A stretch of 38,787 bases of DNA from Chthoniobacter flavus (GTDB taxonomy: Bacteria; Verrucomicrobiota; Verrucomicrobiia; Chthoniobacterales; Terrimicrobiaceae): NCBI GenBank assembly GCA_945883435.1, contig CAMCXK010000028.1:1-38787 (forward strand), in the 5' to 3' direction. This document shows positions 12,926 through 28,236 of the stretch, in pieces. Both the position numbers and the translations under genes were made by a program. The notes beneath the pieces are model-generated. The model was not told where the DNA came from and did no database searches. It worked only from the letters and a program-made list of their open reading frames with translations. Each line of letters begins with the position of its first letter. Position 1 is the first letter of the stretch.

Positions 12926-13773
12926 AATTGTCTCCCAAATTCCACCGCCGACCAATCCAAGCGACCGATCTCGGAGCTGCGAAGCCCCGCAAAAGCGGCG
13001 ATGGCAAGATAAGGAACCATGTCCGCCTCGGAACTTTCCAACAGCTGACGCATTTCCTCCGGCGTGAAAATCTGCGGAGCCACATAAGCCTCGCGCTTCT
13101 TGTCCAGACCAGCCGCCGCGGTCGGCCGGTCCTGCCGCAGATAGGACTGTTTCTGCGCCCAGAGGAAGAACGTCCGCAAGCACGTGATGAAATTGTTCTT
13201 CGTCCGGGCACTGCCCCTGATCCCGTCAATGAATCGCCGCAGTGCCTGCACGGGAATTTCGTGCAATTGTTCTGCGGCGAAACTCCGGCCGAAACCGGTC
13301 AACAGTTGCCGCACCGTCTGAATGTGGCGGGATGACAACCCCGACTCTTCCTTCAGCTTGATGTATTCCTTGGCTGCAGCCTGCGCATTGACCGTGGTCA
13401 GCTCCTTGAGCAATTGCGCCATGCAACTCGCCTTGGGGACCATGGGCGTGCCGAGCAGTGCCTGCCGCGTATCGGCCCATTCACGAATGGCAAACGGCAG
13501 GGAAACTCCGAACTTTGCCGCGATGGACTCCGCGTCCCGCAGGACACTGATGTCCAGAGGCGTGATCTCCGATGCACGGGCGCCGTTGAGCAGCGAAATA
13601 TGGACCTGCTGGGCGTAAGCTTTGGCCTTCTGCGGATCGGCCAGTGTCTTGGTCTGCTTCTCACCCAGCTCATACCAGCGCACTTGGTAGGAGCGGTAGC
13701 GCGAGCGTTTGCGGCGCAAAGGATAGATCCTGACTTCAGACGATCCGTGGCCTACGACGTGAACGCGATGCAT
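12922..13773 (-). pseudogene. Tyrosine recombinase (integrase), C-terminally truncated
   Basis: Remnant of a site-specific tyrosine integrase. Reading from the ATG at 13773 (MHRVHVVGHG) gives an N-terminal segment (YPLRRKRSRYRSYQVRW), a core-binding SAM-like domain (about 115-215), and the start of the catalytic domain up to AGLRSSEIGRLDWSAVEFG, which contains the first catalytic Arg (residue 265). The frame stops 18 residues later, so the catalytic Lys, the HxxR motif and the Tyr nucleophile are missing; about 100 or more residues are lost and the product cannot recombine DNA. It lies 95 bp from the 3' end of tRNA-Asp in the same direction, the usual arrangement for an element integrated in a tRNA gene. 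Confidence 0.85.
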
Positions 13774-13868
13774 ATGGCATCGCGGTGGTGTCAACGGTTG
13801 GTATGAAATTTTGCATGAAACCAAACCGCCATTTCCTCCACAACTACCTGCCCTCGCGTGACATGCGA

Positions 13869-13945
13869 TGGCGGAGCCTACGGGGCTCGAACCCGCAACC
13901 TCTGCCGTGACAGGGCAGCGCTCTGACCGATTGAGCTAAGGCTCC
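13869..13945 (-). tRNA. tRNA-Asp (anticodon GUC)
   Basis: On the minus strand the 77-nt sequence folds fully. The acceptor stem is GGAGCCT with AGGCTCC, the D stem GCTC/GAGC, and the anticodon stem CTGCC/GGCAG with loop CTGTCAC giving anticodon GTC. The T stem is GCGGG/CCCGT with loop TTCGAGC, followed by discriminator G and an encoded CCA. A truncated integrase gene lies just past its 3' end, which marks this tRNA as a likely attachment site. Confidence 0.97.
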
Positions 13946-13959
13946 TTGAGGAGCCGATG

Positions 13960-13987
13960 AGAATAACTTGCCGCTCGGATTTGGCAA
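13960..13987 (-). promoter_or_regulatory. Sigma-70-like promoter of tRNA-Asp
   Basis: On the minus strand TTGCCA (13987-13982) and TATTCT (13965-13960) are separated by 16 bp. This places a start point a few bases before the tRNA 5' end at 13945. Assignment is by consensus match only. Confidence 0.5.
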
Positions 13988-14081
13988 TCAGTTTTTGTGG
14001 TTAATTTTTAACCCACTTTACCGAGAGGAGAGCGGGAGCAATCGGCTGACCTCGGGCGACGAAGATCGCTTGGAAATTCAA

Positions 14082-14606
14082 TCAAGGCAGTGTGTCGAGG
14101 GCCTCCTGAACTTCGCGGGCATGGGATCCTGTTTGGGCGGAGGGGGTCATCCACACAATCTTGCCGTCGCGGATCAGGAAAGATTGGCGCTTGCTCACTG
14201 GCAGTCCCATGACTCCGCCAACTCCAAATGCCTCGGCGAGGCGTCCATCGGCATCGGCGACGAGGGGGAAGGGGAGTTGATATTTTTCCTGAAACTTCTT
14301 TTGTGAAGCGGCGGAGTCGCGGCTGACACCGAGGATCTGGATGTTCTTTCCCTGGAGATCGGCAAAGCTGTCACGCAACGAACACGCCTGGGCGGTGCAG
14401 CCGGGCGTATCCGCCTTGGGATAGAAAAACACCAGCGTGGTTCCCTTGGCATAGATGTCGGCGAAGTGGATAGGATTTCCGTTTTGGTCGATGCCGCTGA
14501 CGAGCGGGGCTGGTGCGCCTGTCTCGAGTGCTTTGAGTGATGGTCCGAAGAGTCCCATGAGAGTGATGAGGAGCAGAGTTGGTTTCACCATAACATTACG
14601 AATCAT
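14082..14606 (-). CDS. Peroxiredoxin, PrxQ/BCP type, exported
   Basis: Thiol peroxidase that reduces peroxides with electrons from thioredoxin-like donors. The thioredoxin fold carries FFYPKADTPGCTAQACSLRD, with the peroxidatic Cys in PGCT and the resolving Cys five residues later, the PrxQ/BCP arrangement. A hydrophobic N-terminal segment (VKPTLLLITLMGLFG) ending near LKALETG looks like a signal peptide, so a periplasmic location is likely. Starts at 14633, 14606 and 14591 are all possible; none has a clear ribosome binding site, and 14606 leaves a short basic n-region. The gene lies between tRNA-Asp and a glycosyltransferase gene. Confidence 0.9.
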   Translation of the reverse strand: MIRNVMVKPTLLLITLMGLFGPSLKALETGAPAPLVSGIDQNGNPIHFADIYAKGTTLVFFYPKADTPGCTAQACSLRDSFADLQGKNIQILGVSRDSAASQKKFQEKYQLPFPLVADADGRLAEAFGVGGVMGLPVSKRQSFLIRDGKIVWMTPSAQTGSHAREVQEALDTLP

Positions 14607-14648
14607 GCGTGCAGATCGCTTTGCAAAAATCACGGGCTGCCGGGGGAT

Positions 14649-15731
14649 TCATCGAAGGCCTTGCAGAAAGGCATCGGTTTCGCGGGAGTTGTCATGCAGT
14701 TCGCGAACGAACCGAGCGCAACCCTCCTGCATGGCGGACAGGAGGGCAGGGTCGGCCAGCATTTCCCGGCCGAGTCTCGCAAGATCAGCGGAGTGCCCAT
14801 TGGCGAAGAGGCCCGGGGTGAAGCGCTCGAAAAGTTGGTCGGGATTCACCCCCAGCGAAAGGAGTGCGGCGTGGCCAAGTCCGGACTGGATAAAACTGTT
14901 CGGCCAGCCTTCCCACTCCGAGGTGTTCACAAATATGCGGGCACGATCGTAGTGGCTCTGAATTTCGTGGTAGGGGACCTTTTCGATAAAGCGGAGATTG
15001 GGGATGGCGGCGGCACGGCGGGCGATGCCATCCCAGAGACTAGCATCCTCTCGGGGGCAGATCATTTCAAACGTATGGTCCTGCAGCGCTTCCGCCAGAT
15101 CGAGAAAATGCCGGGGCTGCTTGACGGGTTGGCAACGGGAGACCCAGAGAAAATCGACCTCCTTGAGTTCATTGCGTGGAAAGGCCCGCGGAAGGATGAG
15201 GTTGCGATACATCGAGCATGGCCATCCTCTCTTTTGAAAAAGCCGCTCTTGGGTGTGGGTCATCGCAAAGCGGCGGTCACAGTTGGCAACGCCCCACTCG
15301 AACAATCCGCCACGCAGTGGATTTTCCCTGCGGAAATCACCGGTGAGTTCGCTGTCGAGTCCGCAGATGAATCCTGTGCGGGAACCGAGAATCCGACCAA
15401 CCGCGACGACGAACGCCATCCAAGCCGTCCATCCCAAAACAAAAACCCAATCCGGCCGCTCTTCCGTGAGCACACCGAGCAGTCTTGGAGCCGAGAGCGC
15501 CATTCGCAGGGGATTCCCGCTGTGAAAGGCACCCGCTGTGCGGATGCGCACCCCCTCGCACACGAGACCATCCCCCTGTCCCGTGTCGCCCGAGACAATC
15601 ACAGTCTCGAGCCCCCGCCGGGCGAGTTCGCGCGCCAAGAGGGCGACTTGCAGTTCGGCCCCGCCGGATACGCGCGTTGAACTCCGCTCCAGCACGAGGT
15701 GTGCGTGGCTCGAGAGGAAGGCGATTTTCAT
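14649..15731 (-). CDS. GT-B glycosyltransferase (GT1/GT4 type)
   Basis: A 360-residue retaining-type glycosyltransferase with the GT-B fold. The N-terminal acceptor domain starts MKIAFLSSHAHLV and has SGGAELQVALLARELARRG, typical of group 1 enzymes. The C-terminal donor domain has FLWVSRCQPVKQP and the NTSEWEGWPNSFIQSGL segment, corresponding to the E(x7)E-like donor-binding region. The ATG at 15731 is chosen because upstream in-frame residues are unlike the family. It lies 49 bp downstream of a GT2 gene on the same strand, and the pair probably helps build a surface glycan. Donor and acceptor are unknown. Confidence 0.87.
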   Translation of the reverse strand: MKIAFLSSHAHLVLERSSTRVSGGAELQVALLARELARRGLETVIVSGDTGQGDGLVCEGVRIRTAGAFHSGNPLRMALSAPRLLGVLTEERPDWVFVLGWTAWMAFVVAVGRILGSRTGFICGLDSELTGDFRRENPLRGGLFEWGVANCDRRFAMTHTQERLFQKRGWPCSMYRNLILPRAFPRNELKEVDFLWVSRCQPVKQPRHFLDLAEALQDHTFEMICPREDASLWDGIARRAAAIPNLRFIEKVPYHEIQSHYDRARIFVNTSEWEGWPNSFIQSGLGHAALLSLGVNPDQLFERFTPGLFANGHSADLARLGREMLADPALLSAMQEGCARFVRELHDNSRETDAFLQGLR

Positions 15732-15780
15732 GCCCGGAGACTGAACACTTTCCCGGCGGCTGGGGAGTCGGAATCCAGCC

Positions 15781-16698
15781 TCATACAATCGAGTATCCTC
15801 CGCGGAGTGCCATGATTCGGCGGAGCACGCGGGAGCCACAGACTCGATCCGCAAGGGCGATGGGAAAGGCGGTAGCAAGCGAGGGATTTCTCAGGGGAGC
15901 GGCCAAGAGCGACTTCCAGAGAAGCCGGCAACCCGCACCGGGGCGATTGTGCCTGAGCAGGCATCGGCCAGCGTTTTCCCAGTGGCGGGAGACAACCTCC
16001 CTCTCGTGAAGGGCTCCAAATGCCCGGATGGATTCCCGGTGCTTCTCCAGAAACAGGCGTGTTGAGGATACCGTCGCATCGGGATGGGAGGGGGAGTTTT
16101 CATGAATGAGGGCGAGGGGATCGGGAAGCACGCAAAGGCGATGTTTGGACGATGCTCTCAAGGCCCAGTCCCAATCTTCCAAAACCCTTAGACGTTCGTC
16201 TTGGCCGCCCAATGATTGCCACAAGGACCGCCTGACCAATGGCGTGCTGGCTCCGTGAAAGGGCAGTGCACCCTGAAGGTGGCGTTCGCCCGGTTGGGAT
16301 TCAAGAACGCGAACCTCGCGGCGGCCTCCGTCGCGGCGCACATACATATGCGAAGTGGCGCAGTAGGCGATCGAGGGATCCGCCTTCAAAGCCGCGATTT
16401 GGCGGGACAATTTTCCGGGGAGCCACTCGTCATCCGAGTCGAGAAAGGCGATCCACTCCCCTGTGGTGAGCTCCAGCGCGGCATTTCGCGCTGCGGCCGC
16501 ACCGCAATTCCGCTCCAGACGGGCAACCTTCAAGCCGGGCCACTCTCGCAGGGCCACTGTCACCGTGTCGTCGGTTGACGCATCATCCCCCAGGACGATT
16601 TCAAGGCCGTCCATATTTTGTCGGCGGATACTCTCCAGGGCCCGTGGCAGGCAATGGGCACGGTTGAAAGCGGGGATGACAATACTGATTTCAGGCAT
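15781..16698 (-). CDS. GT2 glycosyltransferase
   Basis: A 305-residue GT-A fold enzyme. It starts MPEISIVIPAFNRAHCLPRA, followed by the nucleotide-binding DDASTDDT (about 37-44), a NCGAAAARNAAL motif, and the DxD-type LDSDDEW (about 84-90). The acceptor side has VLEDWDWALRA (ED-like catalytic region). Residues from about 200 onward are a less conserved Arg-rich helical tail. The start at 16698 fits the beginning of the fold. It is divergent from the GT-C gene (63 bp apart) and upstream of the GT-B gene, so these three form a small glycan-assembly group. Specificity cannot be assigned. Confidence 0.88.
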   Translation of the reverse strand: MPEISIVIPAFNRAHCLPRALESIRRQNMDGLEIVLGDDASTDDTVTVALREWPGLKVARLERNCGAAAARNAALELTTGEWIAFLDSDDEWLPGKLSRQIAALKADPSIAYCATSHMYVRRDGGRREVRVLESQPGERHLQGALPFHGASTPLVRRSLWQSLGGQDERLRVLEDWDWALRASSKHRLCVLPDPLALIHENSPSHPDATVSSTRLFLEKHRESIRAFGALHEREVVSRHWENAGRCLLRHNRPGAGCRLLWKSLLAAPLRNPSLATAFPIALADRVCGSRVLRRIMALRGGYSIV

Positions 16699-16761
16699 GG
16701 ACAATCGGGCGTCCGGATTCGACTTGTCAGAGCATCCGGACAACCGCATAAGCCAACGCGG

Positions 16762-18378
16762 ATGCGTTTGCGAATCAAGTCTTCAATCTATGAGATATTC
16801 CGCCGGCGACCACGAGCACTTTGCATGATTCTGGCCGTGGCTCTGAGTTTGCCTGGCTTGGGGTGGGGGGTGGTGGAGTGTTGGAATTTAGATCAAATGG
16901 GCCATTTGAAGTTGCAGCCCGACGGTCTTCCCCAGCACTACTTGAAGCCGCCGCTGCACACCTATCTCAACCATTTTCTTGTCTTGAAGCCGCTCAAACA
17001 GGTGCTTGGAGGATGGTTTGGTCTCCCGAAAGAGAGGCGATGGGGGCTTTTGCTGTGGGGTTCGCGCATCTTGACATTGATTCTCTTCGCCGCGTTTGTG
17101 GCGCTCTTCTACGAGACCCTTCGCGGAACGGTTGGCGAAACCGGGTCTCTGTCGGCAGCTCTTCTGGTTGCCACGAGTTCGGGAATTCTTGTTTTCAACC
17201 ATTTTCTCACGGCCGATTCCCCCCTGCTGTTTTGGATGGGCGCATCGCTGTTTTTTGCCGTGCGCTCGGGCATGGGGGCGCATTCGGGCAATGCGGTCCT
17301 GGCGGGTCTTCTGGCGGGTTTGGCCGCAGCCAATAAATACAACGGCTTGGGTGTGTGTGTGGCGATACCGGCCGCGCTCTGGGTGGCCCATGGTTGGCGG
17401 TTTGTTTTGCGTCCGGACCCGTGGCTTGCCGGGCTCGCCCTTCCGCTTGGCTTCTTGATTGGAAACCCCGGGGCGGTGGTCGACGCGCGTCGCTTCATGG
17501 ACGATTTCTTTTACAACTACCACACCACGCCGGTTTATGATGGCACCACTGGGGGCACGGGATACGTCAAGTTTTTGGGCTGCCTGCCCGAACTTCTTGG
17601 CTGGCCGGGGACGCTCCTGGTCGGCAGCGGGGCCATCGCCACGCTGGTTTTGTGGGTTATGGGCCGGCTGAGGAAATCCGAGGTGGTTCTTTGTGCCGCT
17701 GTGCTGGCCGTGTTTTTGTTCAATTTTGCGACTATCGGAAAGTTCCCGCGAATGGGAACCCGGTTCGTGCTGCCTGCAGTGCCTTTTCTGGTGGCCTTGG
17801 CGGCACCGGCCTGGTCCCGGATGTCCATTCCGGTTCTGGCTTGGATCTTGATCCCGTTGCTCGCCTACAATGTCGCCAGTTCACTGGGGATGGGGATGCG
17901 TTTTGCCGGGGATCCTCGCGTTCCCGCGATGCGATGGGCGGAAGCCCGCATTCCCGCAGGAGCGCATATCGAGAGTAGCTACGCGCCAAGCTGGCAACGT
18001 GTGCCAGACAAGGATTGGGTCGTTTCCACACTGCCAGCCGCCACCGGTCGACGTGAGCTTTTTGCAAAAATCCTCTCCGACAAACCATCGGTGCAAGAGG
18101 GGGCCGCACGGTTTGAGACTCCAATCGATGACGAAATTTTTACCGCCGAGGGGCTCAAATCCCGCAACCCCGAATGGGTGGCGTTCAGCACACACGTATT
18201 CGAATGGTCGGGGGACGATCGCGCGCAGCGATTCTATGCCGATTTGGATGCCGGGCGACTGCCTTATCGCAAATGTTTCGAGTCGGCGGCAGTCGATCGT
18301 TGGCCATGGACCTACCCGGTGCGAATTGATTTTTTGGTCGACCGGATGGTGATTTTGCAACGGTGCGACCCCGATTGA
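16762..18378 (+). CDS. GT-C type membrane glycosyltransferase (PMT/ArnT-like)
   Basis: A 538-residue polytopic membrane protein with about ten hydrophobic helices and a soluble C-terminal part (about 400-538). The layout fits family 39/83-like enzymes that use polyprenyl-phosphate sugars on the periplasmic side. The first loop has WNLDQMGHLKLQPDG, where an acidic residue would be catalytic, and the middle region has LLVATSSGILVFNHFLTADSPLLFW, typical of PMT_2 proteins. Starts upstream of 16762 would run into the divergent GT2 gene, so the ATG giving MRLRIKSSIYE is preferred. The DPM1-like enzyme at 5886-6602 could supply its lipid-linked donor; this link is inference. Confidence 0.78.
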   Translation: MRLRIKSSIYEIFRRRPRALCMILAVALSLPGLGWGVVECWNLDQMGHLKLQPDGLPQHYLKPPLHTYLNHFLVLKPLKQVLGGWFGLPKERRWGLLLWGSRILTLILFAAFVALFYETLRGTVGETGSLSAALLVATSSGILVFNHFLTADSPLLFWMGASLFFAVRSGMGAHSGNAVLAGLLAGLAAANKYNGLGVCVAIPAALWVAHGWRFVLRPDPWLAGLALPLGFLIGNPGAVVDARRFMDDFFYNYHTTPVYDGTTGGTGYVKFLGCLPELLGWPGTLLVGSGAIATLVLWVMGRLRKSEVVLCAAVLAVFLFNFATIGKFPRMGTRFVLPAVPFLVALAAPAWSRMSIPVLAWILIPLLAYNVASSLGMGMRFAGDPRVPAMRWAEARIPAGAHIESSYAPSWQRVPDKDWVVSTLPAATGRRELFAKILSDKPSVQEGAARFETPIDDEIFTAEGLKSRNPEWVAFSTHVFEWSGDDRAQRFYADLDAGRLPYRKCFESAAVDRWPWTYPVRIDFLVDRMVILQRCDPD

Positions 18379-18392
18379 AATAGCCGGGGGCG

Positions 18393-19466
18393 TCAGTCGC
18401 CGAAAGAAATGCCCGTGGCACGCGCCGTGCGGATCGCCTCGCCACCTGTTTCGACCCGACGCATTTGTTGGACGGCCTCGGCGATGGGAACCGATCCCAT
18501 GGATCCGTTGCGCAAGCTTGCCATGTGGCCGAGAAGACCGGCCTCCACAAGCTCCACAGCTTTGACACCAAAGGCGGTTCCAAGGATGCGGTCGGAAAAA
18601 ACCGGAGGTCCACCGCGTTGAAGATGCCCGAGAATACAGGATCGAACCTCCCTCGGAGTGGAATCCGCCAACTCGCGGGCCAGCAACTCCGCGGCGGCAA
18701 GGGAGCGTCGATCCGATGGGTTGTTGGACGAGGGACGGGGCCAGCCATGCCGGGGACGGGCACCCTCCGCGATCACGATCATGTGCGAATGGGATCCACG
18801 CGCCTCCCGCTCGGACACCACACGTTGGATGGCATCGATCCCGAAGGGAATTTCCGGAATCAGAATTACATCGGCCCCGCCCGCGAGCCCACCGTGCAAG
18901 GCGATCCAGCCCGCATGGCGTCCCATGACCTCCACGATCATGATTCGCTTGTGGCTGGCCGTGGTGGTGTGCAGACGGTCGAGCGATGAGACAACGCACT
19001 CCACCGCCGAGTCGAAGCCGAATGTGCGATCGGTGGCACCGATGTCGTTGTCAATGGTCTTCGGAACTCCCACGACGGGAAGACCGCACTGGTGCATGTG
19101 AAGGGCGGTGCTGAGTGATCCGTCGCCTCCGACCACAATCAAGGCGCGCAAACCGAGGTTTTGAAATGTTTGACGGGCCTTGCCGAGAATTTCGGGGGGG
19201 ATGAAAATGCCCGTCCGGCCGGGTTGCCGGCAGAGGAAATGGCCTTTGTTCACCGTGCCGATAATGGTGCCTCCCAGATGAAGAACGCCGTTTGTCGCCC
19301 GGCGATCGAGAAGCCGATGGTTCATGGGCGGGAGAAGGCCCTCGAATCCATCGCAGAATCCCACCAATTCCCAGCCACGGGATTCGCAGGCCCGGCTTGC
19401 AGCGCGCAGCACGGCATTCAGGCCGGGACAGTCGCCCCCGCTGGTGAGAATGCCGATGCGGGTCAT
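18393..19466 (-). CDS. pfkA: 6-phosphofructokinase
   Basis: Glycolytic enzyme that phosphorylates fructose 6-phosphate at C1; 357 residues. It begins MTRIGILTSGGDCPGLN, has GGDGS at 113-117, the catalytic PKTIDND at 135-141, and VMGRHAGW near 195. The Gly in GGDGS predicts ATP rather than pyrophosphate as donor. The Lys in PKTIDND (Gly in E. coli PfkA) is typical of the other PFK branch, so this is the mixed G/K type. The ATG at 19466 is chosen over upstream alternatives because it gives the family N terminus. It is the last gene of a seven-gene minus-strand cluster, 8 bp after a DD-carboxypeptidase gene. Confidence 0.95.
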   Translation of the reverse strand: MTRIGILTSGGDCPGLNAVLRAASRACESRGWELVGFCDGFEGLLPPMNHRLLDRRATNGVLHLGGTIIGTVNKGHFLCRQPGRTGIFIPPEILGKARQTFQNLGLRALIVVGGDGSLSTALHMHQCGLPVVGVPKTIDNDIGATDRTFGFDSAVECVVSSLDRLHTTTASHKRIMIVEVMGRHAGWIALHGGLAGGADVILIPEIPFGIDAIQRVVSEREARGSHSHMIVIAEGARPRHGWPRPSSNNPSDRRSLAAAELLARELADSTPREVRSCILGHLQRGGPPVFSDRILGTAFGVKAVELVEAGLLGHMASLRNGSMGSVPIAEAVQQMRRVETGGEAIRTARATGISFGD

Positions 19467-19474
19467 GGGAATGA

Positions 19475-20437
19475 TCAAAGGCTCGCGTTTTTCTTCGAGG
19501 GGCGACCCTCTGCTGCCCAGGCGTCGTAAAGCGACCAACCGCGCCGGATGAGATCCATGCCGTCTGCAAATCGATCCGGGGATCGCAACAGAACAATGTC
19601 GATACGGCGGGGAGTCACAAAAACCTGTTCGCCTTCGCGGCGGGTTTCAGCAGGCTTGGTGCTGGAAAGAACCAGGCAGTCGCCAGCGCGGCGGGTGCGA
19701 CCGGTTTTGACCCCGTCGATGCCGTCCCGCCCGAGGAGTTCGTTGGTGTTTTTGATTTCCGAAGCATTGTCGATGCCGTCACGGAAAACGTGGATGGGAC
19801 GGGATTTTTGAGACACATAAAAAGCAAAGCCCGCATTGCCGAGGGCGTGACGGACCAAACGGGCCATGTCGGCCGCGGTTGAGCGGGGCATGCTCATGTC
19901 TTCACGATGGTCCATGCCTGAAGGGTTTAGAAACACGGTTCGACTCATCGAGAGGTTGCGGGCCAAGGCATTCATGTGGGCCACGAAGTTCCCCACCGGA
20001 TCGAGTCCTTCGTGGTTGGACACGCGGGAACCCACGTGGTCGGCAAGGGTGTGCGCAGCGATGTTGTCGGACGCGAGGAGGGCACAGTAGATCAAATCCC
20101 GCAAACTGATCTCGTCTCCCGGGCGGAGTCCCACAGAACTGCTGGCCCCGTGGGCAAGGGCTCCGGGGGGAACCTCTGCGAGGGCCGAGAGATCGGACTT
20201 CGTCAGCTCGGACCAGTCGAGAACGACAATTGCCGTTGCGATTTTGGTCAGGCTGGCGATGGGGAGGCGTTCATCCCGGTTTTTTGCTTCCAGAATGTGA
20301 CCGGTTTGGTTGTCCACGATCACGTAGCTGCGTGGTTCCGCGTGGGCTTGTGAAGCCAGAACCGCAACGTGGAGAAAGAGGCCGAAGAAAACGTGTTTCA
20401 CGGGCTGTGAAAGTAGCTTTCCGCCGGGACGCTTCAA
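19475..20437 (-). CDS. D-alanyl-D-alanine carboxypeptidase (peptidase S11), second paralog
   Basis: Penicillin-binding protein that trims the terminal D-Ala from peptidoglycan stem peptides in the periplasm. It is 320 residues with a signal sequence (about 14-33, ending QAHAEP). The S11 catalytic motifs are complete: SLTK with nucleophile Ser62 and Lys65, SDN at 123-125 and KTG at 244-246. The domain after KTG is short, so the C-terminal beta domain and membrane anchor of PBP5 are absent. It sits between a cNMP/FHA protein gene (22 bp) and pfkA (8 bp). A second S11 gene lies upstream in the same cluster. Confidence 0.92.
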   Translation of the reverse strand: MKRPGGKLLSQPVKHVFFGLFLHVAVLASQAHAEPRSYVIVDNQTGHILEAKNRDERLPIASLTKIATAIVVLDWSELTKSDLSALAEVPPGALAHGASSSVGLRPGDEISLRDLIYCALLASDNIAAHTLADHVGSRVSNHEGLDPVGNFVAHMNALARNLSMSRTVFLNPSGMDHREDMSMPRSTAADMARLVRHALGNAGFAFYVSQKSRPIHVFRDGIDNASEIKNTNELLGRDGIDGVKTGRTRRAGDCLVLSSTKPAETRREGEQVFVTPRRIDIVLLRSPDRFADGMDLIRRGWSLYDAWAAEGRPSKKNASL

Positions 20438-20459
20438 TCACGATTTGAGGCGGTGGGCG

Positions 20460-21371
20460 TCAAGCCACGTGGATGCGGAATTGAAACGGGCTTTTGGCGC
20501 TTCCCAGAAGAAGGCGGTTTTCACCTTGGCGGAGCTCGGCTGTGAGACCCGAGTGGTGAACTCCGATCAAGGTATCGTTGACGATGGTGCCGAGGCGACT
20601 GCCGCGATCGCGCACGAACAACCGGTCGCCTTCGCGCTCGATCGAGCAGTGGCTTCGCGAGACCTGGTAGGGTTCGTGGTCTGAAATGGCGAGGTCGTTT
20701 TTCGAGAACAGCGGACTGCGTCCCTCCTCCTCCACAGCGCCGCGCCCCATGCGGAATGGAAATTTTGAAATTTCGACCTGACTGAAACTTTCGGAAAAAC
20801 GCGACGCGCAATTCTCGTCCCAAGGCTCCAGTGTGACGCTCCGGAATGTGACGGGAGTGAATGCAGCCGGAGGGGGAGACACAGGCCTGGCCGGCAATAA
20901 TTCGGAACCAGCAAGGGGAGGGGGAGAAACCATCGTGTGGGAAGCTGCTTCGATGCGCGGTGGAGCCGTGGAAGGGCGTTGTCCTGCCCGGAGCCGGATT
21001 TCCATTTGTAGGCGGTCGTTCACAGTGCGAAGTCGCTCAAAAAATGTGGCCAGGTAGGGAAGCAAACGCTGCGGGTTGTGAAGGAGCACGCTCTGAAAAT
21101 CCGCAGGCGACATGACTTCGCATTCGGTTTCCAGCAAACAGCGCGCTGTTGCCGAGCGGGGACGCTCGTCCACCATCGCCATTTCGCCGAAAATATCCCC
21201 CGGTCCGAGTTGGGCGAGGATGACCGGGCGCATACGTCCAGCGATGGTGATTTCGACCTTCCCGCGGAGAATGCGGTAGGCGTCTTGGCTGGTCTCGCCT
21301 TCCGGGAAAATGACTTGTCCGGCTTGGAAACGTTCGAGGCGCATGGTGGAGGAACGTTGTATGTGAATCAT
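20460..21371 (-). CDS. Cyclic-nucleotide-binding plus FHA domain fusion protein
   Basis: A 303-residue soluble sensor-like protein. Residues about 10-120 form a cNMP-binding beta-barrel: FQAGQVIFPEGE, then the phosphate-binding cassette GDIFGEMAMVDERPRSAT (58-75) with Glu and Arg ligands in place. A Pro-rich linker (about 131-185) leads to a forkhead-associated domain (about 200-300) with FRMGRG, SRSHC and the RGSRLGT.VND motif, which binds phosphothreonine. There is no HTH or enzymatic domain, so it would relay a signal by binding partners. The start at 21371 leaves 32 bp after uvrD; an ATG at 21344 is also possible. The ligand and the partner kinase are not in the window. Confidence 0.85.
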   Translation of the reverse strand: MIHIQRSSTMRLERFQAGQVIFPEGETSQDAYRILRGKVEITIAGRMRPVILAQLGPGDIFGEMAMVDERPRSATARCLLETECEVMSPADFQSVLLHNPQRLLPYLATFFERLRTVNDRLQMEIRLRAGQRPSTAPPRIEAASHTMVSPPPLAGSELLPARPVSPPPAAFTPVTFRSVTLEPWDENCASRFSESFSQVEISKFPFRMGRGAVEEEGRSPLFSKNDLAISDHEPYQVSRSHCSIEREGDRLFVRDRGSRLGTIVNDTLIGVHHSGLTAELRQGENRLLLGSAKSPFQFRIHVA

Positions 21372-21403
21372 GAATCCAAGTCGCTGGGAAGCGGGAACAC
21401 GGC

Positions 21404-23386
21404 TCAGGATCCGGTGACATCCCACTGCTCAACGAGGTGGTCGGGCAGCTCGTGCAAAAATCGGGAGGGCGACTGGTAGGCCTCGCCGTAGCCAGCCCCC
21501 AGACGGAGTTCGGGGTAAGTCAGGTAAAGTTCATCCATGCATCGGGTGATGCCCACATAAAACAGGCGGCGTTCCTCCTCCAGGCCCGCAGGGTCTTCGA
21601 TGCTGCGGGAACTCGGGAACATGCCATCCGTCAGCCAGACCAGAAAAACCACTTTCCATTCGAGGCCCTTGGCTTGGTGCAGCGAGGAGAGGGTGATCTT
21701 GTCCCGGTCCTGGTCGCTGGCAGCCTGTTCGGGGGCATCGAGACCCCCGAGAAGGGCCAGTTGACTCAGAAAATCCTCCACCGTGTCGAATTGCCGGGCG
21801 AAGGTCTGCAATGTTTCCAGGTCTTCCCGGCGGGCTTCGAAGTTCGAGAATTTCTCCTTCATGTAGTCTTCGTAGACGCCGAGGAGCGCCGACTGAATCA
21901 TGGCATCCGGTCGAGGAGGAGGAGCGTCGGAGGGAGCGAGTTCGGTCAGTGTGAGAACAAATTGTTCCCAAGGCTTCACTGCTTTGGGCGGAACCTTGAA
22001 GCCGGCGAGACGGGAAAAACCGTTTTCACCTTGAAGAGCTTCCGAAGCCCGCTCCCAGAGGGCATCCGCGGATTTGTTGCCGATGCCGGGCAGAAGACGG
22101 ATCATGCGCTTGAAAGCCATCTCGTCGCGGGGATTGGCGGCGAATTTCAAGAATGCCGCCACGTCCTTGACATGAGCCTGCTCGAAAAAACGCAACCCGC
22201 TTGTGATGGCGAACGGGATTCCCCGGCGGGTGAATTCCATTTGAATTTCCATCGAGTGGTAGTGGGCGCGGTAAAGAACGGCGATTTCGGCCAGTGGCAT
22301 TCCCTCCTCCACAAGTTCCAACACGCGCTGTGCGACAAATGCCGCCTGAAGATTGTTGGTCGGCAAGGCCACCAGAGCCGGTTTCACCGCGTGCGGAGCC
22401 CGAATGGCCGCAAGGTTTTTCGGGAATTGGTTGGTATTTGGCAGAATCGCCGCATTGGCGAGATCAAGCACACCCGGAACGCTGCGGTAGTTCGTTTCGA
22501 TTTTAAAAACCCGGGTTCCGGGGTGAGTGGCAGGAAATTGCAGGATATTTGCGCAATCGGCACCGCGCCACGAGTAGATGCTCTGGGCATCATCGCCCAC
22601 GACCATCAGATTGCCGTGGCGTGCGGCGAGGCGATCGACCAGTTCGGACTGCAAGCGGTTGGTGTCCTGGTATTCGTCGACGAGAACGTGCTGGAATTGC
22701 AGTTGCTCGGCGATCTCCGGCGAGAGGGTCAGGAGTTCGAGGGTCTTGGAGAGCAGGTCGTCGAAGTCCATCGCGTTCGCCTCCTTTTTGCGCGCTTCAT
22801 AGGCGATTTGCATGCGCTCGATGTCCTCCGCGAGGGGAATGAAATACCGGTATTTGCGCGAGAGGATTTTCGAAACTGGCGCGCCGGTGTTCACCGCGAG
22901 GCTGAAAATGTCGGCCAGAACGCCGGGCTTCGGAAACCTTTTGTCGGTGGAGACGATGCCCGAGCGTGTCACGACCGTTGCGATCAGTTCCTCGGCGTCC
23001 TCGCGGTCCATGATCGAGAAGCCTTGGCGGAATCCAACAGCTTCGGCATGGCGGCGGAGGATGCGGTTGCCGATCGAGTGGAAAGTGCCGCTCCAGAGGC
23101 CATCTGCGCGCCCCGGTAGGAGGTCATGCACCCGGCCGGTCATCTCCCGCGCAGCCTTGTTGGTGAAGGTGAGAAGAAGAATCGAGCCGGCGGGAATGCC
23201 CTGCTCCAAAAGCCATGCGACGCGAAAGGTGAGGGTGCGGGTTTTTCCGCTCCCCGCACCTGCAATAACCAATGCAGGGCCACCCGGTGAGGTTACGGCG
23301 GCGAGTTGTTCGTGATTCAGTTCGGCGGAAAAATCTAGCCCTGTCGGTGTCGTGGCGGTGCTGTGGAGGGTGTAGGATCTGGCCAC
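21404..23386 (-). CDS. UvrD/Rep/PcrA-type SF1A DNA helicase
   Basis: A 3'-5' DNA helicase for repair or replication restart; 660 residues, close to the Rep/PcrA length. Walker A is GAGSGKT (43-49). Further SF1A motifs are LTFTNKAAREM (Ia), VDEYQDTN (II), VVGDDAQSIYSWRGA (III), ETNYRS (IV), LHQAKGLEWKVVFL (V) and EEERRLFYVGITR (VI). The C terminus is short after motif VI, lacking the full UvrD tail. It lies 6 bp after a DD-carboxypeptidase gene, so it shares a transcript with cell-wall genes; this is unusual company for a helicase. Confidence 0.93.
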   Translation of the reverse strand: MARSYTLHSTATTPTGLDFSAELNHEQLAAVTSPGGPALVIAGAGSGKTRTLTFRVAWLLEQGIPAGSILLLTFTNKAAREMTGRVHDLLPGRADGLWSGTFHSIGNRILRRHAEAVGFRQGFSIMDREDAEELIATVVTRSGIVSTDKRFPKPGVLADIFSLAVNTGAPVSKILSRKYRYFIPLAEDIERMQIAYEARKKEANAMDFDDLLSKTLELLTLSPEIAEQLQFQHVLVDEYQDTNRLQSELVDRLAARHGNLMVVGDDAQSIYSWRGADCANILQFPATHPGTRVFKIETNYRSVPGVLDLANAAILPNTNQFPKNLAAIRAPHAVKPALVALPTNNLQAAFVAQRVLELVEEGMPLAEIAVLYRAHYHSMEIQMEFTRRGIPFAITSGLRFFEQAHVKDVAAFLKFAANPRDEMAFKRMIRLLPGIGNKSADALWERASEALQGENGFSRLAGFKVPPKAVKPWEQFVLTLTELAPSDAPPPRPDAMIQSALLGVYEDYMKEKFSNFEARREDLETLQTFARQFDTVEDFLSQLALLGGLDAPEQAASDQDRDKITLSSLHQAKGLEWKVVFLVWLTDGMFPSSRSIEDPAGLEEERRLFYVGITRCMDELYLTYPELRLGAGYGEAYQSPSRFLHELPDHLVEQWDVTGS

Positions 23387-23392
23387 GGGAGG

Positions 23393-24223
23393 TTAGTTCG
23401 AGCCCAACCGCATGGCACTGACCTGGGCGGGGGTGAGGTTGAGACCGTAGGCGAGAAGGCGTGTCGACTCCTCGGCAATTTTGGCTTTCGTGGAACCGAG
23501 GATGACCGCGATCACATCCCGACCCTTGTGGGAGCCACTGGAGATCAGGCAGTGGCCGGCCAAGTCGGTGTATCCGGTTTTCATACCGTTGCAGAATGAA
23601 TAAGTGCGAAGCACGCGATTGGTATTGCGCAGGGGAACGACTGAACCCGAGGAGAACCGGAAGTTGTAATACTTCGTGCCCATGATTTCGCGAAGCGTGG
23701 GATTTCGATAAGCCATGCGGGCGACACGCGCCATGTCGCGGGCCGTTGAGTATTGGCCCTTCGCAGGCAGTCCGTTGGGGTTTAAAAAGTTCGAGTTGGT
23801 TCCCCCGAGCGCATTGACGCGGGCGGTCATCTTGCGAGCGAACGACGCGACATCCCCGGCGTTGTCGCGGGCCAGCGCCCGGGCGACATCATTGCCACTT
23901 TTCACCAGCAGGGCGTAGAGGAGCTGCAACCGGGTGTAGCTCTGGCCGGGTTTCACATACAGCTTGGTGGGTTCGCATTGGCCATCTGTGGACGTGATGG
24001 TGATTTTTTGATCGAGGTCTCCTTGTTCTGCCACGAGGAGTGCGGTGAGGAGTTTCTGGGTGCTCGCCACGGGGCGGGCCACATCGTCGTTTTTTTTGTA
24101 AAGGACTTTTCCCGTGTTGGCATCGATCAGAATCGCTGACTTCGCGGTGATCACGGGCGGGGCGGCTTGAATGGAAGTGGCCAAGGCGAGAAAACAAGCG
24201 GCAAGCAAAGGAAGGGACTTCAT
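23393..24223 (-). CDS. D-alanyl-D-alanine carboxypeptidase (peptidase S11), first paralog
   Basis: Periplasmic DD-carboxypeptidase of 276 residues with a clear signal peptide (residues 1-21, ending SIQAAPP). Catalytic motifs are STQK (Ser54, Lys57), SGN (109-111) and KTG (215-217). The N-terminal AKSAILIDANTGKVLYKKN is typical of S11 enzymes. There is no C-terminal beta domain, so it is a minimal DacA/DacF-like form. The ATG at 24223 is chosen because the upstream in-frame 34 residues are not a signal peptide and would overlap the TPR gene. It is 10 bp after that gene and 6 bp before the helicase gene. Confidence 0.92.
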   Translation of the reverse strand: MKSLPLLAACFLALATSIQAAPPVITAKSAILIDANTGKVLYKKNDDVARPVASTQKLLTALLVAEQGDLDQKITITSTDGQCEPTKLYVKPGQSYTRLQLLYALLVKSGNDVARALARDNAGDVASFARKMTARVNALGGTNSNFLNPNGLPAKGQYSTARDMARVARMAYRNPTLREIMGTKYYNFRFSSGSVVPLRNTNRVLRTYSFCNGMKTGYTDLAGHCLISSGSHKGRDVIAVILGSTKAKIAEESTRLLAYGLNLTPAQVSAMRLGSN

Positions 24224-24233
24224 GATTGAGAGA

Positions 24234-24872
24234 TTAGGGTTTGATGGATTTTGAAAAGACCTTTTCCATTTCGGGGTCGATTTCAACCCCGAGGGTGCGC
24301 GCCTTGTAATAGTGGCGGCGCGCAAGTTCGATCGCGGGAGGGCGGTCCTGAAGGTAAAAAGCGGCTAAGTTGTAGTGGGCATCTGCATGGTCCGGATCGA
24401 GTTCCACCGCACGCCGGAGTTCACACTGGGCGCCATCGATCCATCCCCGGCGGCCGATGACCACGCCCAAGAAGTTGCGGGCGTTGGCGCTTTCCGGATC
24501 CAGAAAGATGGCTTGGCTGAGGGCCGCAAGCGCTTCGTCGCTTCGGTCCTCGTCCATGGCGATTGTTCCCAGAGCGAGCCAGGCGGCAGCGGTGTCGGGC
24601 TTCAGGACCACAGCCCGTCGGAGATGTTTGCGGGCCTCATCGGGCCGGCCGGAGCGGAATTCCACAAGTCCCGCGTTGACCAGGCCGAGAACGTTGTCCG
24701 GATCGATGGCCAGAACCTCGGCATAGGCGGCGCGGGCGGTTTTCCAATCCTTGTTTTCAAAGGCCACATTGCCGCGGGCGATCGCCTCTTGCAAAACCCG
24801 CGGCGCAGGTGCCATGGGGGCACCCACCGCGATTGCGGACGCCGCAAAACAGACCACGACAAGGAACTTCAT
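24234..24872 (-). CDS. Exported tetratricopeptide-repeat protein
   Basis: A 212-residue protein with a signal peptide (MKFLVVVCFAASAIAVGAP) and at least four TPR units (about 30-195). These are visible as repeated W/A-A-Y..vL-iDP-n patterns: KTARAAYAEVLAIDPDN, then EARKHLRRAVVLKPD, EALAALSQAIFLDPES and GAQCELRRAVELDPDHAD. TPRs make protein-protein scaffolds, so it may organise a periplasmic complex; no partner is known. Its ATG overlaps the proC stop (ATGA, 24869-24872), and a DD-carboxypeptidase gene follows after 10 bp, which suggests a link to wall enzymes. Confidence 0.85.
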   Translation of the reverse strand: MKFLVVVCFAASAIAVGAPMAPAPRVLQEAIARGNVAFENKDWKTARAAYAEVLAIDPDNVLGLVNAGLVEFRSGRPDEARKHLRRAVVLKPDTAAAWLALGTIAMDEDRSDEALAALSQAIFLDPESANARNFLGVVIGRRGWIDGAQCELRRAVELDPDHADAHYNLAAFYLQDRPPAIELARRHYYKARTLGVEIDPEMEKVFSKSIKP

Positions 24873-25666
24873 CGGGCAGACGACAATTCCGTGGCCCGGA
24901 GGGCGGCAGCCTCCACCGCGCGGATCAAGGCGCCTCGAACGGCCGCGTTTTCGAGTTCCAGCAGACCTGCGGCAGTCGTTCCTCCGGGACTGGTGACCAT
25001 TTCGCGCAGAATCGCCGGGTGCAGTCCCTCCGAGGCGGCAAGTGCGGCTGCTCCTCGAAGCGTCTGAATGGCCAACTCCCTGGCCAGAGCGGCGGGAAGA
25101 CCGGCTTTGACGCCACCCTCTGTCAGCGCCTCCAAAAACAGAAACACATACGCCGGTCCGCTGCCGCTGAGACCTGTGACAGCGTCCAGCGAGTGCTCGG
25201 GAACCTCCCAGAAAGCGCCCATGCACCGTAAAACAGACTCGACGGCGGCGCGGTCGCCAGAGGTGAGTGATTCCGAGCAACAATAAGCTGTGGCGGACTC
25301 TCCGATCGTGGCCGCGGTGTTCGGCATGCAGCGCGCAATCCGGGCCCCGGGTGCGAGGACCGAGAGGGAGTGGAGGGTTTTTCCGCTGACGATCGAGAGT
25401 AGGATCTTGCCATCGAGACTCGAGCCGCAGGATTCCAGCGCGGCTGAAGTTTCATTCGGCTTTACGCACAAAAGAACCAAATCGGCGGAGCGGGCGGCCA
25501 TTTCGTTGCTCGCGGAGGTCGCAACTCCGAATCGATGGGAAAGTTTTTCCAAATGGAGCTTTTCCGGCCCCGCGACAACGATGCGTGCCGCCGGAACCTC
25601 ACTTTTCAGGAGGCCTTCAATAATTGCTGTGGCCATCTTTCCCGCACCCAGAAATCCATATTTCAT
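24869..25666 (-). CDS. proC: Pyrroline-5-carboxylate reductase
   Basis: Last step of proline synthesis: reduction of pyrroline-5-carboxylate with NAD(P)H. It is 265 residues, starting MKYGFLGAGKMATAIIEGLL (Rossmann GxGxMA). The C-terminal dimer domain has the family signature: LSGSGPAYVFLFLEAL (about 155-170), then a GG-rich segment MVTSPGGTTAAGLLELE. The ATG at 25666 matches the family start; upstream in-frame residues are not conserved. It is the first gene of the seven-gene minus-strand cluster. Its upstream region (25667-25781) is 115 bp with no convincing promoter, bounded by an IS3-type fragment. Confidence 0.95.
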   Translation of the reverse strand: MKYGFLGAGKMATAIIEGLLKSEVPAARIVVAGPEKLHLEKLSHRFGVATSASNEMAARSADLVLLCVKPNETSAALESCGSSLDGKILLSIVSGKTLHSLSVLAPGARIARCMPNTAATIGESATAYCCSESLTSGDRAAVESVLRCMGAFWEVPEHSLDAVTGLSGSGPAYVFLFLEALTEGGVKAGLPAALARELAIQTLRGAAALAASEGLHPAILREMVTSPGGTTAAGLLELENAAVRGALIRAVEAAALRATELSSAR

Positions 25667-25781
25667 ACAAGCAAACATGAGTGGTGTGCGCCCCTTTGAA
25701 AAGCCGCATCCTTTCATCCCGCGCCGACCGCGGTTCCGCGTCGTGATTTAGCGCCGGATTACCGATGCTTCGGGGTTGGAG

Positions 25782-25955
25782 TGCTCCCCGAAAACTGATC
25801 CAGAAGTTATGAGAGTTGGCGGCGCGGAGCGCCGTCGAAACTCTGTGGAAAAAGAAAAGACATATACCGGAAGAAATCATCAAAAAGCTCCGTGAGGTCG
25901 AAGGGTTGATCGCGGCAGGCAAAGGAGTCGAGGTTGCCGTGCGAGCCATTGGCGT
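25782..25955 (+). mobile_element. IS3-family left-end fragment
   Basis: A short insertion sequence remnant. From 25782 the sequence reads TGCTCCCCGAAAACTGATCC, resembling an IS3-type terminal repeat (TG..CT.CCCC). It is followed about 15 bp later by the first codons of a transposase orfA. The element stops abruptly at about 25951-25957, where it meets the N-terminal codons of a Gfo/Idh gene on the other strand. The right end, the rest of orfA and all of orfB are missing. Together with the truncated gene at 25956-26063 this fills most of the 393-bp stretch between proC and the ThuA gene; no intact gene lies there. Confidence 0.7.
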
Positions 25956-25992
25956 GAGGTGGCTCCGTCCCATGTTGAAGGCCCCTCCATAA
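25816..25992 (+). pseudogene. IS3-family transposase orfA, N-terminal fragment
   Basis: Translation gives KKKRHIPEEIIKKLREVEGL, then IAAGKGVEVAVRAIGV. This matches the helix-turn-helix N terminus of IS3-group OrfA proteins (usual form KRfteeqIi.kLReaevll..G.s..e.cr.lGv). After AIGV the frame continues as RWLRPMLKAPP and stops; this part reads antisense to an oxidoreductase remnant and is not transposase. The usual continuation (TYYRWR) is absent. A TTG at 25816 is the only start after the preceding in-frame stop. It is non-functional. Confidence 0.75.
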
Positions 25993-26063
25993 CCGATGAC
26001 TCCCGCGCGGATGTCGGATGCGCTTTTTATTTTTTTTATGGTTCTTGGTAACCTAGGGATCAA
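25956..26063 (-). pseudogene. Gfo/Idh/MocA oxidoreductase, N-terminal remnant
   Basis: On the minus strand the frame gives DIRAGVIGYGGAFNMGRSHL, the beta-alpha-beta N terminus of Gfo/Idh/MocA enzymes (GxGGxFxxGR). It breaks off at about 25956, where IS3 orfA sequence begins in antisense. About 36 codons survive of roughly 350-400. No ATG is in frame; a TTG at 26063 overlaps the ThuA gene stop as TTGA, so the gene was probably translationally coupled to it. ThuA-Gfo/Idh pairs are common in sugar-use operons, which supports the reading. An A-rich run (26027-26040) lies within the first codons. Confidence 0.7.
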
Positions 26064-26707
26064 AGCACGCGGCCTGCCCAAAGCATGCCGTTCAGCGACA
26101 TCTCAAAAACGTGCGGCCATTTTTCCAGTTCCACTGGATCGTGTCCGAGTGCCGAGTAGAACACGCGGCCTTTGCCCCAATTTTTTGTCCACACGACGGG
26201 CATCTTGCAGGTGTTTTCCTCAAATGTGTAATCCGTCCTTGCCAGCACACGGATGGAGGGATCCACCAGCATGTAGTATTGCTCGGAGGTGTAGGAGAAT
26301 TCCGCAGGAAGCCCCCGCATGATACCGTGCGAGGGGTCGGTGACATGGATTTTGTATTCGCCCACGTGAGGATGGCCCACAAAGTGCCCACCGACCATCC
26401 ACTCGTAGTCGAGGTCGCCGCGGAAGGCATCGCCCATGCCTCCATGAATCCCTCCCAGCCCCGTCCCGGCGCGAACCGCTTCACGCAAGCCGGCGCTTTC
26501 CTCGGCTTTGAGACTCCCCATCGTCCAGCATGGCGAGATGAGATCGAAGGTTCTGAGCCAGTCCACTTCCGCAAGCCGCTCCAGGCTGGTGACGGTCTCT
26601 GTTTGCCAACCAAGTCCGCGCATGCCCAAACGGAATTTATCCACGACTTGTTCAGGTTTGTGGCCACTCCAACCACCTTGCAGGAAAAGCAACTTTGGGG
26701 ATTCCAT
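26060..26707 (-). CDS. ThuA-like protein (trehalose-utilisation family)
   Basis: A 215-residue protein of the ThuA family, which has a class-I glutamine-amidotransferase-like fold but no confirmed catalytic activity; members occur beside sugar oxidoreductases. It starts MESPKLLFLQGGWSGHKPE and shows the family blocks GLGGIHGGMGDAF, MVGGHFVGHPHVGEY and MPVVWTKNWGKGRVFYSALGHDP. The ATG at 26707 is preferred over the GTG at 26737, whose extra residues are not conserved. Its stop overlaps the start of the broken Gfo/Idh gene, so the presumed partner enzyme has been lost and the gene may be decaying in function. It is divergent from the ExuT-type gene (245 bp). Confidence 0.85.
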   Translation of the reverse strand: MESPKLLFLQGGWSGHKPEQVVDKFRLGMRGLGWQTETVTSLERLAEVDWLRTFDLISPCWTMGSLKAEESAGLREAVRAGTGLGGIHGGMGDAFRGDLDYEWMVGGHFVGHPHVGEYKIHVTDPSHGIMRGLPAEFSYTSEQYYMLVDPSIRVLARTDYTFEENTCKMPVVWTKNWGKGRVFYSALGHDPVELEKWPHVFEMSLNGMLWAGRVL

Positions 26708-26952
26708 TTTTTGAAAGTCCAAACCTAGCTTGAACACTTGTCCAAGTCAGCGCGAAATCCTCGGGTGGGTGGAATATCTCTTTGAGCGACGGGGAGGTCG
26801 TTTTTGCAATTGCTGAGGCGAGTGCCCGAAAACGGGCTTCGATGCCGCCATGTGCAAATCCACCCTCGGTGGAAAATCCGACGCTCACGGGCACAACAAT
26901 AGACTCTCCCTGTTAGATGAACCATGGTAGGTGTCACCAGATATCTTTTTAC

Positions 26953-28236
26953 ATGGACTCCCGCATTGATTCTTCCATGCCAAGCAGCCGATTTCGCTGG
27001 GTCGTTTGCGCCCTTTTGTTTTTTGCCACGACGATCAATTACATCGACCGGCAAATCCTCTCTCTTCTGAAGCCTATTCTGGATGATGAACTGGGGTGGA
27101 CGAGCACCGAGTTCGGGGCCATCAATTCGGCGTTTCAAGCAGCTTATGGAGTCAGCCTTTTTGTGTTTGGATGGTTGATCGATCGTTACGGAACCAAAGT
27201 CGGATATGCCGCTTCGATTTTCTCGTGGAGTTTGGCTGCCATGGCCCACGCTCTGGTCTTTTCGATTCCCGGTTTTTTCGCCGCCCGTATCGCCCTGGGC
27301 CTGGGAGAGGGGGGGAACTTCCCGGCGGCTGTTAAAGCCACCGCCCAATGGTTCCCCAAGCGGGAGCGTGCCTTGGCAACAAGTTTGTTCAATTCCGGAG
27401 CGAATGTGGGAGCGATCCTCGCACCGGCAGTGGTTCCGGCTATCGCGTATTCGATGGGTTGGCATTGGACATTCATTCTCGCGGGAATCGCGGGATTTGT
27501 ATGGTTGCTGTTCTGGTGGCCCCTTTTTGACCATCCGGAACGATCACGCCGGGTGAATGCGGCCGAGTTGGCGCACATCGAAAGCGACGCGGTTGTGGAT
27601 GGCGACTCTGGCGGAGCGATTTCTTGGGGACGGCTCCTACGCTGTCGCGAGGCCTGGTCGTTTATTGCCGCCAAGTTTTTAACCGATCCGGTGTGGTGGT
27701 TCTTTCTGATTTGGTTGCCCGACTTTTTCAAGAAAACCCGGGGACTCGATATCAAGAGCAGTTGGACATTGCTCGTCGCCATTTACGGGATCATTACAGT
27801 CTTGAGCATCGCTGGTGGCTGGGTAACCGGCTGGCTCGCGGGCCGGGGATGGAGCATCAGCAAGGCCCGTAAGACCGGGATGTTTGTTTTTGCTTTGTGC
27901 GTCCTCCCGATTGCTCTGGTGACCCGTGTGGGCGACTGGACTGCCGTGTTGCTCATCGGACTTGCCGGAGCAGCCCATCAAGCCTGGTCGGCCAACCTTT
28001 TTACGACTGTCTCCGACATGTTTCCCAAGCGTGTCGTGGCCTCGCTCACGGGGCTGGGCAGCATGGTCGGAACGATTGGCGGCATGGCTTTTCCCATTCT
28101 CACCGGTGTGGTTCTGGACAAGTTCACCAACGGCTATGCGATGATTTTTGGCGTTTGCTCGGTGGCATACCTCGTTGCCTTTGCAGTGAATAGCCTGCTT
28201 GCCCCGCGCTTCGAGCCAGTGCGCATCGGATCCTGA
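26953..28236 (+). CDS. MFS transporter, ExuT hexuronate-transporter type
   Basis: A 427-residue, 12-helix major facilitator protein of the anion:cation symporter group, predicted to import glucuronate, galacturonate or related sugar acids with protons. The first helix block FRWVVCALLFFATTINYIDR is very close to ExuT-type proteins. The loop motif GWLIDRYGTKVGY fits MFS motif A, and ARIALGLGEGGNFPAAVKAT is the family-specific helix 4 segment. The ATG at 26953 is chosen because residues from the upstream 26917 start are not conserved. Convergent uxuA and fructuronate reductase genes support hexuronate transport. A hairpin terminator follows the stop. Confidence 0.88.
   Translation: MDSRIDSSMPSSRFRWVVCALLFFATTINYIDRQILSLLKPILDDELGWTSTEFGAINSAFQAAYGVSLFVFGWLIDRYGTKVGYAASIFSWSLAAMAHALVFSIPGFFAARIALGLGEGGNFPAAVKATAQWFPKRERALATSLFNSGANVGAILAPAVVPAIAYSMGWHWTFILAGIAGFVWLLFWWPLFDHPERSRRVNAAELAHIESDAVVDGDSGGAISWGRLLRCREAWSFIAAKFLTDPVWWFFLIWLPDFFKKTRGLDIKSSWTLLVAIYGIITVLSIAGGWVTGWLAGRGWSISKARKTGMFVFALCVLPIALVTRVGDWTAVLLIGLAGAAHQAWSANLFTTVSDMFPKRVVASLTGLGSMVGTIGGMAFPILTGVVLDKFTNGYAMIFGVCSVAYLVAFAVNSLLAPRFEPVRIGS

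Follow-up and report, generated by a model that had tools for sequence, protein, structure and literature searches.

A cyclic-nucleotide-binding barrel joined to an FHA domain in Verrucomicrobiota, a possible cAMP-gated adaptor

The gene described here lies on the minus strand of the window, by which we mean the whole stretch of 38,787 nucleotides that was analysed, and encodes a protein that joins a cNMP-binding domain to an FHA domain. Its features, and two genes that flank its neighbourhood, are given below in window coordinates.

20460..21371, minus strand: coding sequence of the cNMP-FHA protein, 303 amino acids plus stop, with no internal stop in the translation
21078..21335, minus strand: cNMP_binding domain, residues 13-98 (Pfam E 3.2e-19; placed identically by the genome search)
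21144..21191, minus strand: phosphate-binding cassette FGEMAMVDERPRSATA, residues 61-76 (E63 in 45/45 sequences, R72 in 44/45)
20982..21074, minus strand: long helix after the barrel, residues 100-130, 31 residues (AlphaFold2 model)
20847..20981, minus strand: linker, residues 131-175, rich in Pro and not conserved (modelled at low confidence)
20463..20846, minus strand: FHA domain fold, residues 176-303 (Pfam match to residues 217-271, FHA-only model and structure matches)
20742..20744, minus strand: Arg210 of the FHA GR motif (45/45)
20649..20660, minus strand: FHA S-R-S-H motif, residues 238-241 (Ser238 in 42/45, His241 in 45/45)
20586..20600, minus strand: FHA S-R-L-G-T, residues 258-262, with Leu260 at the Asn position of NGT (never Asn, n = 45)
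19475-20437, minus strand: Peptidase_S11 (DD-carboxypeptidase; Pfam)
23393-24325, minus strand: Peptidase_S11 (DD-carboxypeptidase; Pfam)

The true start is probably Met10 (window 21344), because 14 of the 17 aligned sequences, that of the window among them, have a Met at that column. In the Pfam scan, cNMP_binding (PF00027) scored 69.1 bits (cut-off 27.5) and FHA (PF00498), over residues 217-271, 39.8 bits (cut-off 20.7; E 6.3e-10), and no further family exceeded its cut-off in the window protein. Yop-YscD_cpl, the T3SS YscD-type FHA family, stayed below its family cut-off there (22.4 vs 33.2 bits), as did TagH, the T6SS FHA protein (15.7 vs 120.25). The linker (residues 130-176) has 12 Pro in 47 residues, was modelled by AlphaFold2 at low confidence and without secondary structure, and varies from 11 to 70 residues across relatives. 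An earlier note, made from the sequence alone, had described a cNMP-binding and an FHA domain with a Pro-rich linker and nothing else; Pfam and the architecture of relatives confirm this order, to which we add a CRP-like helix between barrel and linker that was not on the note's list. Because the relatives keep the same architecture, the two-domain order goes beyond chance: both domains were matched at E 0.001 in all 30 members of the alignment used for folding. The FHA-like family Yop-YscD_cpl was also matched in 14 of these members and an extra DUF533 in one, and none had a helix-turn-helix Pfam match at E 0.001, the FHA standing there instead.

The AlphaFold2 model of the whole protein, built on this alignment of 30 sequences, has a mean pLDDT of 80.5 and consists of a barrel, the 31-residue helix, the low-confidence linker and an FHA fold; its pTM of 0.54 makes the relative placement of the two domains unreliable. 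Since structure searches with the whole model gave barrel matches only, the FHA part was modelled (pLDDT 88.2, pTM 0.84) and searched alone. Barrel and helix together resemble CRP structures, with GlxR as the best Foldseek match (E 5.4e-10) and a VIA-align Z of 15.0 to apo CAP (rmsd 2.8 over 115 residues), and the helix may be a dimer helix as in CRP. For the FHA part the first match was EmbR, at Z 13.6 and an rmsd of 1.7 over 97 residues, on a par with DgcB, GarA and OdhI, while FHA sequence searches of the PDB returned no match with the single sequence and one with the profile.

Residue conservation was tabulated over 45 sequences, namely the window protein, 38 loci and six from the phylum genome sample (excluding L147, with one internal stop, and L142, the same protein as L079). 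The cassette lies where the earlier note had put it (residues 58-75, sequence GDIFGEMAMVDERPRSAT) and has the canonical FGE...PRSAT form, nearly invariant: G62, E63 and M64 are the same in all 45 sequences, and R72 gives way once, to His in L075, so that the key Glu and Arg are kept and the cassette has not been lost. In the FHA part R210, H241, D255, G261 and T262 are invariant, whereas the Cerasicoccus copies, which come from named strains, carry Ala at the Ser238 position. Position 260, whose column was set by alignment with 6a8w and equals the Asn of NGT in the FHA of yeast VPS64 (Far9), holds Leu in 26 sequences, Val in 12, Arg in three and other residues in four. GR and S-x-x-H belong to the motif list for FHA phosphothreonine readers in the available excerpt of PMC1262709. 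For Bdellovibrio DgcB, the excerpt of PMC6733907 gives R61, S75, R76, T96 and H78 as the pocket and places R61, K72 and R76 at the phosphothreonine; by motif, R210, S238, R239 and H241 would correspond to DgcB R61, S75, R76 and H78. As judged from these motifs, the pocket is mostly, not fully, canonical, because the DgcB-like pattern of R210, S238 and H241 is kept but the NGT Asn is absent.

Within the genus, relatives aligning over both halves were found in eight of 16 genomes (G000, G001, G004, G005, G008, G009, G010 and G014), and four others (G007, G011, G012 and G013) gave matches to the FHA half only. A whole-protein relative was absent from the remaining four (G002, G003, G006 and G015), where the barrel matched other proteins; G003 is 100% and G015 99% complete. 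Upstream of the FHA, the DNA is continuous and holds no barrel in G011 and G012, is interrupted by a run of N in G013 and meets the contig end in G007, which is not counted as FHA-only. FHA-only relatives lie in L038 at 10204-10626 (minus strand) and in L040 at 4379-4810 (plus strand), in a clade with the G013 copy. On a tree of the FHA part, in which eight of 21 inner branches are open, the G011, G012 and G013 copies group together (support 100/98), and their clade is joined to the window protein (84/81). As this FHA-only clade nests among fusions, it reads as one loss of the barrel, and a clade with the FHA but without the sensor would offer a natural control.

Beyond the genus, at least nine of 387 genomes of the phylum sample carry the two halves at a single place or in a single frame (G000, G058, G103, G162, G179, G199, G369, G384 and G429, the last with one internal stop), a lower bound given that at most six candidates were scored per genome, at a limit of E 1e-25. 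A scan of named genomes kept 79 loci, with an FHA in an open frame in 36 of the closest 37 and none, by family profile, in the 42 more distant ones. In L080 the open frame holds no FHA, yet the tblastn match extends as far as residue 285, so a break in the frame is likely. By title, the loci belong to several lineages of Verrucomicrobiota, to an Elusimicrobia MAG and to a cyanobacterial MAG. Four loci (L050, L053, L068 and L069) carry titles of Akkermansia, Paceibacterota and Chthoniobacter flavus, and their fusion proteins or gene order resemble other Verrucomicrobiota loci; these titles look unreliable. The copy in the cyanobacterial MAG (L075, 6627-7637, plus strand) has a C-terminal extension and the His in place of the cassette Arg; the single DUF533 match probably belongs to it, and its presence there could reflect transfer or contamination. 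A mobile origin was considered and rejected, with one phage record matched (barrel only) and five plasmid records, two of them over at least 80% of the protein; two Azospirillum plasmid copies are annotated just as 'cyclic nucleotide-binding domain-containing protein'. The cNMP_binding-FHA order, for which the earlier note had proposed a domain-architecture search, exists in several phyla, in a family that is uncharacterised.

We then compared the fusion with the signalling genes of the same genomes. Class III cyclases were matched in all 16 genus genomes and in all eight further fusion genomes; they do not discriminate within the genus, because fusion-less genomes have them too. For Hanks kinases, the corresponding counts are all 16 genus genomes, six of the eight other fusion genomes and, for a set of genomes reached through 20 of the 37 closest loci, 19 of 20; G058, G199 and G443 gave no match. 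In the genome of the window itself, three class III cyclases and three kinases were matched, and a contig end cuts the best kinase match; with five cNMP_binding and four FHA matches besides, the fusion is one of several such proteins there and not the sole candidate receptor. The third cyclase-like protein of this genome (L170, 935-2197, plus strand) differs at several positions shared by the other two and looks degenerate. For c-di-AMP as a ligand, the DAC family is uninformative, being present in 19 of 20 genomes checked, and this candidate was set aside.

The situation is simpler in three small genomes, G058 (1.7 Mb, 99% complete), G199 (1.3 Mb, 98%) and G162 (1.7 Mb, 99%), each of which has one cNMP_binding and one FHA match, both within the fusion, and one class III cyclase match. 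The G058 cyclase aligns with CyaB and CyaC and the G199 cyclase with that of G058, and both keep the Asp, Lys, Thr, Asn and Arg positions that we take to be catalytic. The only cyclase matched in G162 (L171) is split over two reading frames, by either sequencing error or decay, which leaves cAMP synthesis in G162 unsure. G058 and G199 gave no kinase match, either to PF00069 (E 0.001) or to PF07714 (E 0.1); as the two belong to the same genus, this kinase absence counts as one lineage and not as two events. Of 13 other small fusion genomes, which range from 1.3 to 2.2 Mb, 12 gave a single kinase match, partial in two cases, and the thirteenth gave no match. The single kinase of ten small fusion genomes is a full-length relative of L191 of G004 (42-46% identity). 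A family close to L191 was considered as a dedicated partner kinase and rejected, because it does not discriminate fusion genomes: it occurs in 14 of the 16 genus genomes, that is in 11 of 12 with a fusion or FHA relative and three of four without, being absent from G000 (fusion) and G015 (no fusion). This comparison covered most genus kinase matches, omitting a two-piece match from G015 as well as several weak matches.

We consider it somewhat more probable than its contrary that the protein is a stand-alone cyclic-nucleotide receptor with FHA docking as its output, in other words a cAMP-gated adaptor. What has been observed is that the two domains occur in a conserved order, that the cassette is intact and the FHA pocket largely so, that cyclases co-occur in the genomes checked, and that three small genomes gave no cNMP_binding match outside the fusion. 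Under this reading, cAMP from the cell's class III cyclases would bind the N-terminal CRP-type barrel; helix 100-130 would pair two subunits as in CRP, and the ligand would change how the helix sits. Such a shift could expose, hide or re-space the two FHA domains on their flexible linkers, which would then catch or release a partner, most likely one bearing phosphothreonine. The protein would in effect be a CRP with its DNA-binding domain exchanged for a protein-docking domain. Among the points against the adaptor reading, gene order suggests no partner, four genus genomes have no relative of the whole protein, and the FHA can exist without nucleotide input, since one clade keeps it without the barrel. 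The nucleotide input is the better supported half, because cyclases are found in all fusion genomes checked and kinases went unmatched in some; a phosphothreonine output is plausible, perhaps not needed everywhere. The earlier note had linked a nucleotide second messenger to Ser/Thr phosphorylation. That proposal is supported in part, by an intact cassette and by cyclase and kinase matches in the window's genome, but phosphothreonine reading is weakened by the lack of the NGT Asn in 45/45 sequences and of a Hanks kinase match in G058 and G199.

The same two facts feed the main alternative for the output half, in which the FHA needs no phosphothreonine but docks or packs constitutively, leaving the nucleotide as the only signal. 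This alternative, which we regard as a serious contender though an unlikely one, shares its input half with the adaptor reading, and the two probabilities overlap. It would fit the missing Asn as well as G058 and G199, where the fusion is the only FHA match and the two kinase families, PF00069 and PF07714, went unmatched. Against it, the FHA domain of NIPP1 binds phosphothreonine with another residue in place of the NGT Asn. Also against this alternative, Arg210, Ser238 and His241 are conserved, also in the G058 (L146) and G199 (L144) copies, and a kinase was matched in all but one of the 13 other small genomes. The pocket residues of DgcB, as given in the excerpt of PMC6733907, show much the same pattern.

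A different doubt concerns the input: the barrel may bind no cyclic nucleotide and serve as a dimerisation scaffold or a sensor of another small molecule, as in some CRP/FNR relatives. Relatives with other ligands exist, and NtcA, which responds to 2-oxoglutarate, is among the structural matches, but the nearly invariant canonical cassette speaks against such a role, and phmmer ranks mostly CRPs and kinase subunits that bind cGMP or cAMP at the top, with Toxoplasma PCR12 in first place. We therefore find a barrel without a nucleotide ligand improbable.

Quite improbable, too, is a version in which, after the manner of OdhI, GarA and DgcB, the FHA binds a phospho-Thr of the same protein, located in the linker or at the N terminus, with the nucleotide controlling closure. 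In DgcB the protein's tail serves as FHA ligand according to the excerpt of PMC6733907, and a motif, [LIVP]E-x-[TS]-R, occurs in 21 of 45 linkers (e.g., L054 and L046) compared with a mean of 0.24 and a maximum of 3 in 500 rounds of shuffled linkers. This motif is a possible docking or phosphorylation site. It is missing, however, from the window protein and 23 others, and its 21 carriers are mostly close relatives and hence not independent; moreover, the linker ranges so widely in length (11 to 70 residues) and contains no Thr in five of 45 cases.

Gene order was rejected as a guide to partners, because the neighbours differ between lineages. We compared 16 other ORFs from the 12001-29600 part of the window with those of 40 other loci and, requiring E 1e-10 and 28% identity over half the shorter protein, obtained no shared group; the 40 loci include ten from genus genomes, seven of them under public contig names. 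At a looser E 1e-6, a glycosyltransferase-like window ORF (15781-16749) has a 27% match in L032, which was dismissed as a shared neighbour for lying under the grouping thresholds and belonging to a large family. By Pfam, the neighbours elsewhere include methionine synthase, SMC, a glycosyltransferase, an ABC transporter and ybaB with recR, and at the subdivision 6 loci they are, judging by the starts of their sequences, probably pyruvate dehydrogenase E1, dnaB and maf. We also considered that a DNA-metabolism gene might recur as a neighbour, but abandoned this with the Pfam scan of neighbours, in which no functional group recurs beside the fusion across lineages. In G179, a gene about 3.2 kb from the fusion (L180, 9518-11110, plus strand) encodes a protein of 530 aa in which a Hanks kinase domain precedes a cNMP_binding domain; as G179 has 66 kinase matches, this proximity may be chance. 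In the window, the two Peptidase_S11 genes flank the fusion and a uvrD-like gene on the same strand and are not kept beside the fusion elsewhere. The earlier note had proposed to test the two DD-carboxypeptidases as targets, and their flanking position would fit this, but with no window neighbour shared with the 40 other loci, their recruitment by the protein is scarcely credible.

Returning to the cAMP-gated adaptor, the small genomes allow a further, more tentative reading that we hold possible but would sooner doubt than accept: every response of proteins to cAMP in some Verrucomicrobiota with streamlined genomes might run through one CRP-type receptor with an FHA, by docking only and with no CRP transcription factor, in the G058/G199 lineage without Hanks kinases. 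If this is true, the FHA of G058 and G199 would read another phosphorylation or none. Bacterial cAMP has mostly been studied through CRP-type transcription factors, and if a conserved CRP-type sensor drives a docking domain, this would amount to a different output route for cAMP. In small genomes that combine a single cyclase, a single candidate receptor and no more than one kinase, the circuit would be nearly closed and could be tested as such.

The earlier note knew of no characterised protein with this domain order, and our search agrees: no description of the cNMP_binding-FHA architecture appears in the open PubMed Central titles and abstract starts among the matches listed, and some of these matches are Bordetella papers, in which a haemagglutinin is also called FHA. 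The available excerpt of PMC12419801 describes the combination of VanZ-type domains with cNMP-binding, FHA and other domains, and not this two-domain protein; those of PMC7159879, PMC11032199 and PMC1262709 hold no description of the architecture. The protein is a member of an uncharacterised family.

Several known systems share one half of it. CRP, GlxR and Mtb CRP, the top structural matches, have the same barrel with phosphate-binding cassette and following helix, but carry a DNA-binding domain where 30 members of the present family have an FHA. Bd1971 of Bdellovibrio (cNMP + EAL), also among the matches, likewise combines a CRP-type barrel with an output that does not bind DNA; its EAL enzyme cleaves c-di-GMP, whereas the output of the fusion is a docking domain. 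DgcB (FHA + GGDEF) places an FHA in a second-messenger protein, and its fold (Z 13.5) and, by the motif-based mapping, its R and S-R-x-H pocket are shared with the fusion. In DgcB, however, the FHA is the sensor and the messenger the product, while the fusion would take the messenger as input and use the FHA as output. GarA and OdhI (Z 12.7 to 13.2) are small proteins with an FHA as their working part; in place of a nucleotide-sensing barrel, they carry an N-terminal tail that is phosphorylated. EmbR (DNA-binding + FHA), the first FHA match by Z (13.6, tied with others), has no nucleotide sensor, and its non-FHA part binds DNA, in contrast to the CRP-type barrel that precedes the FHA in the fusion.
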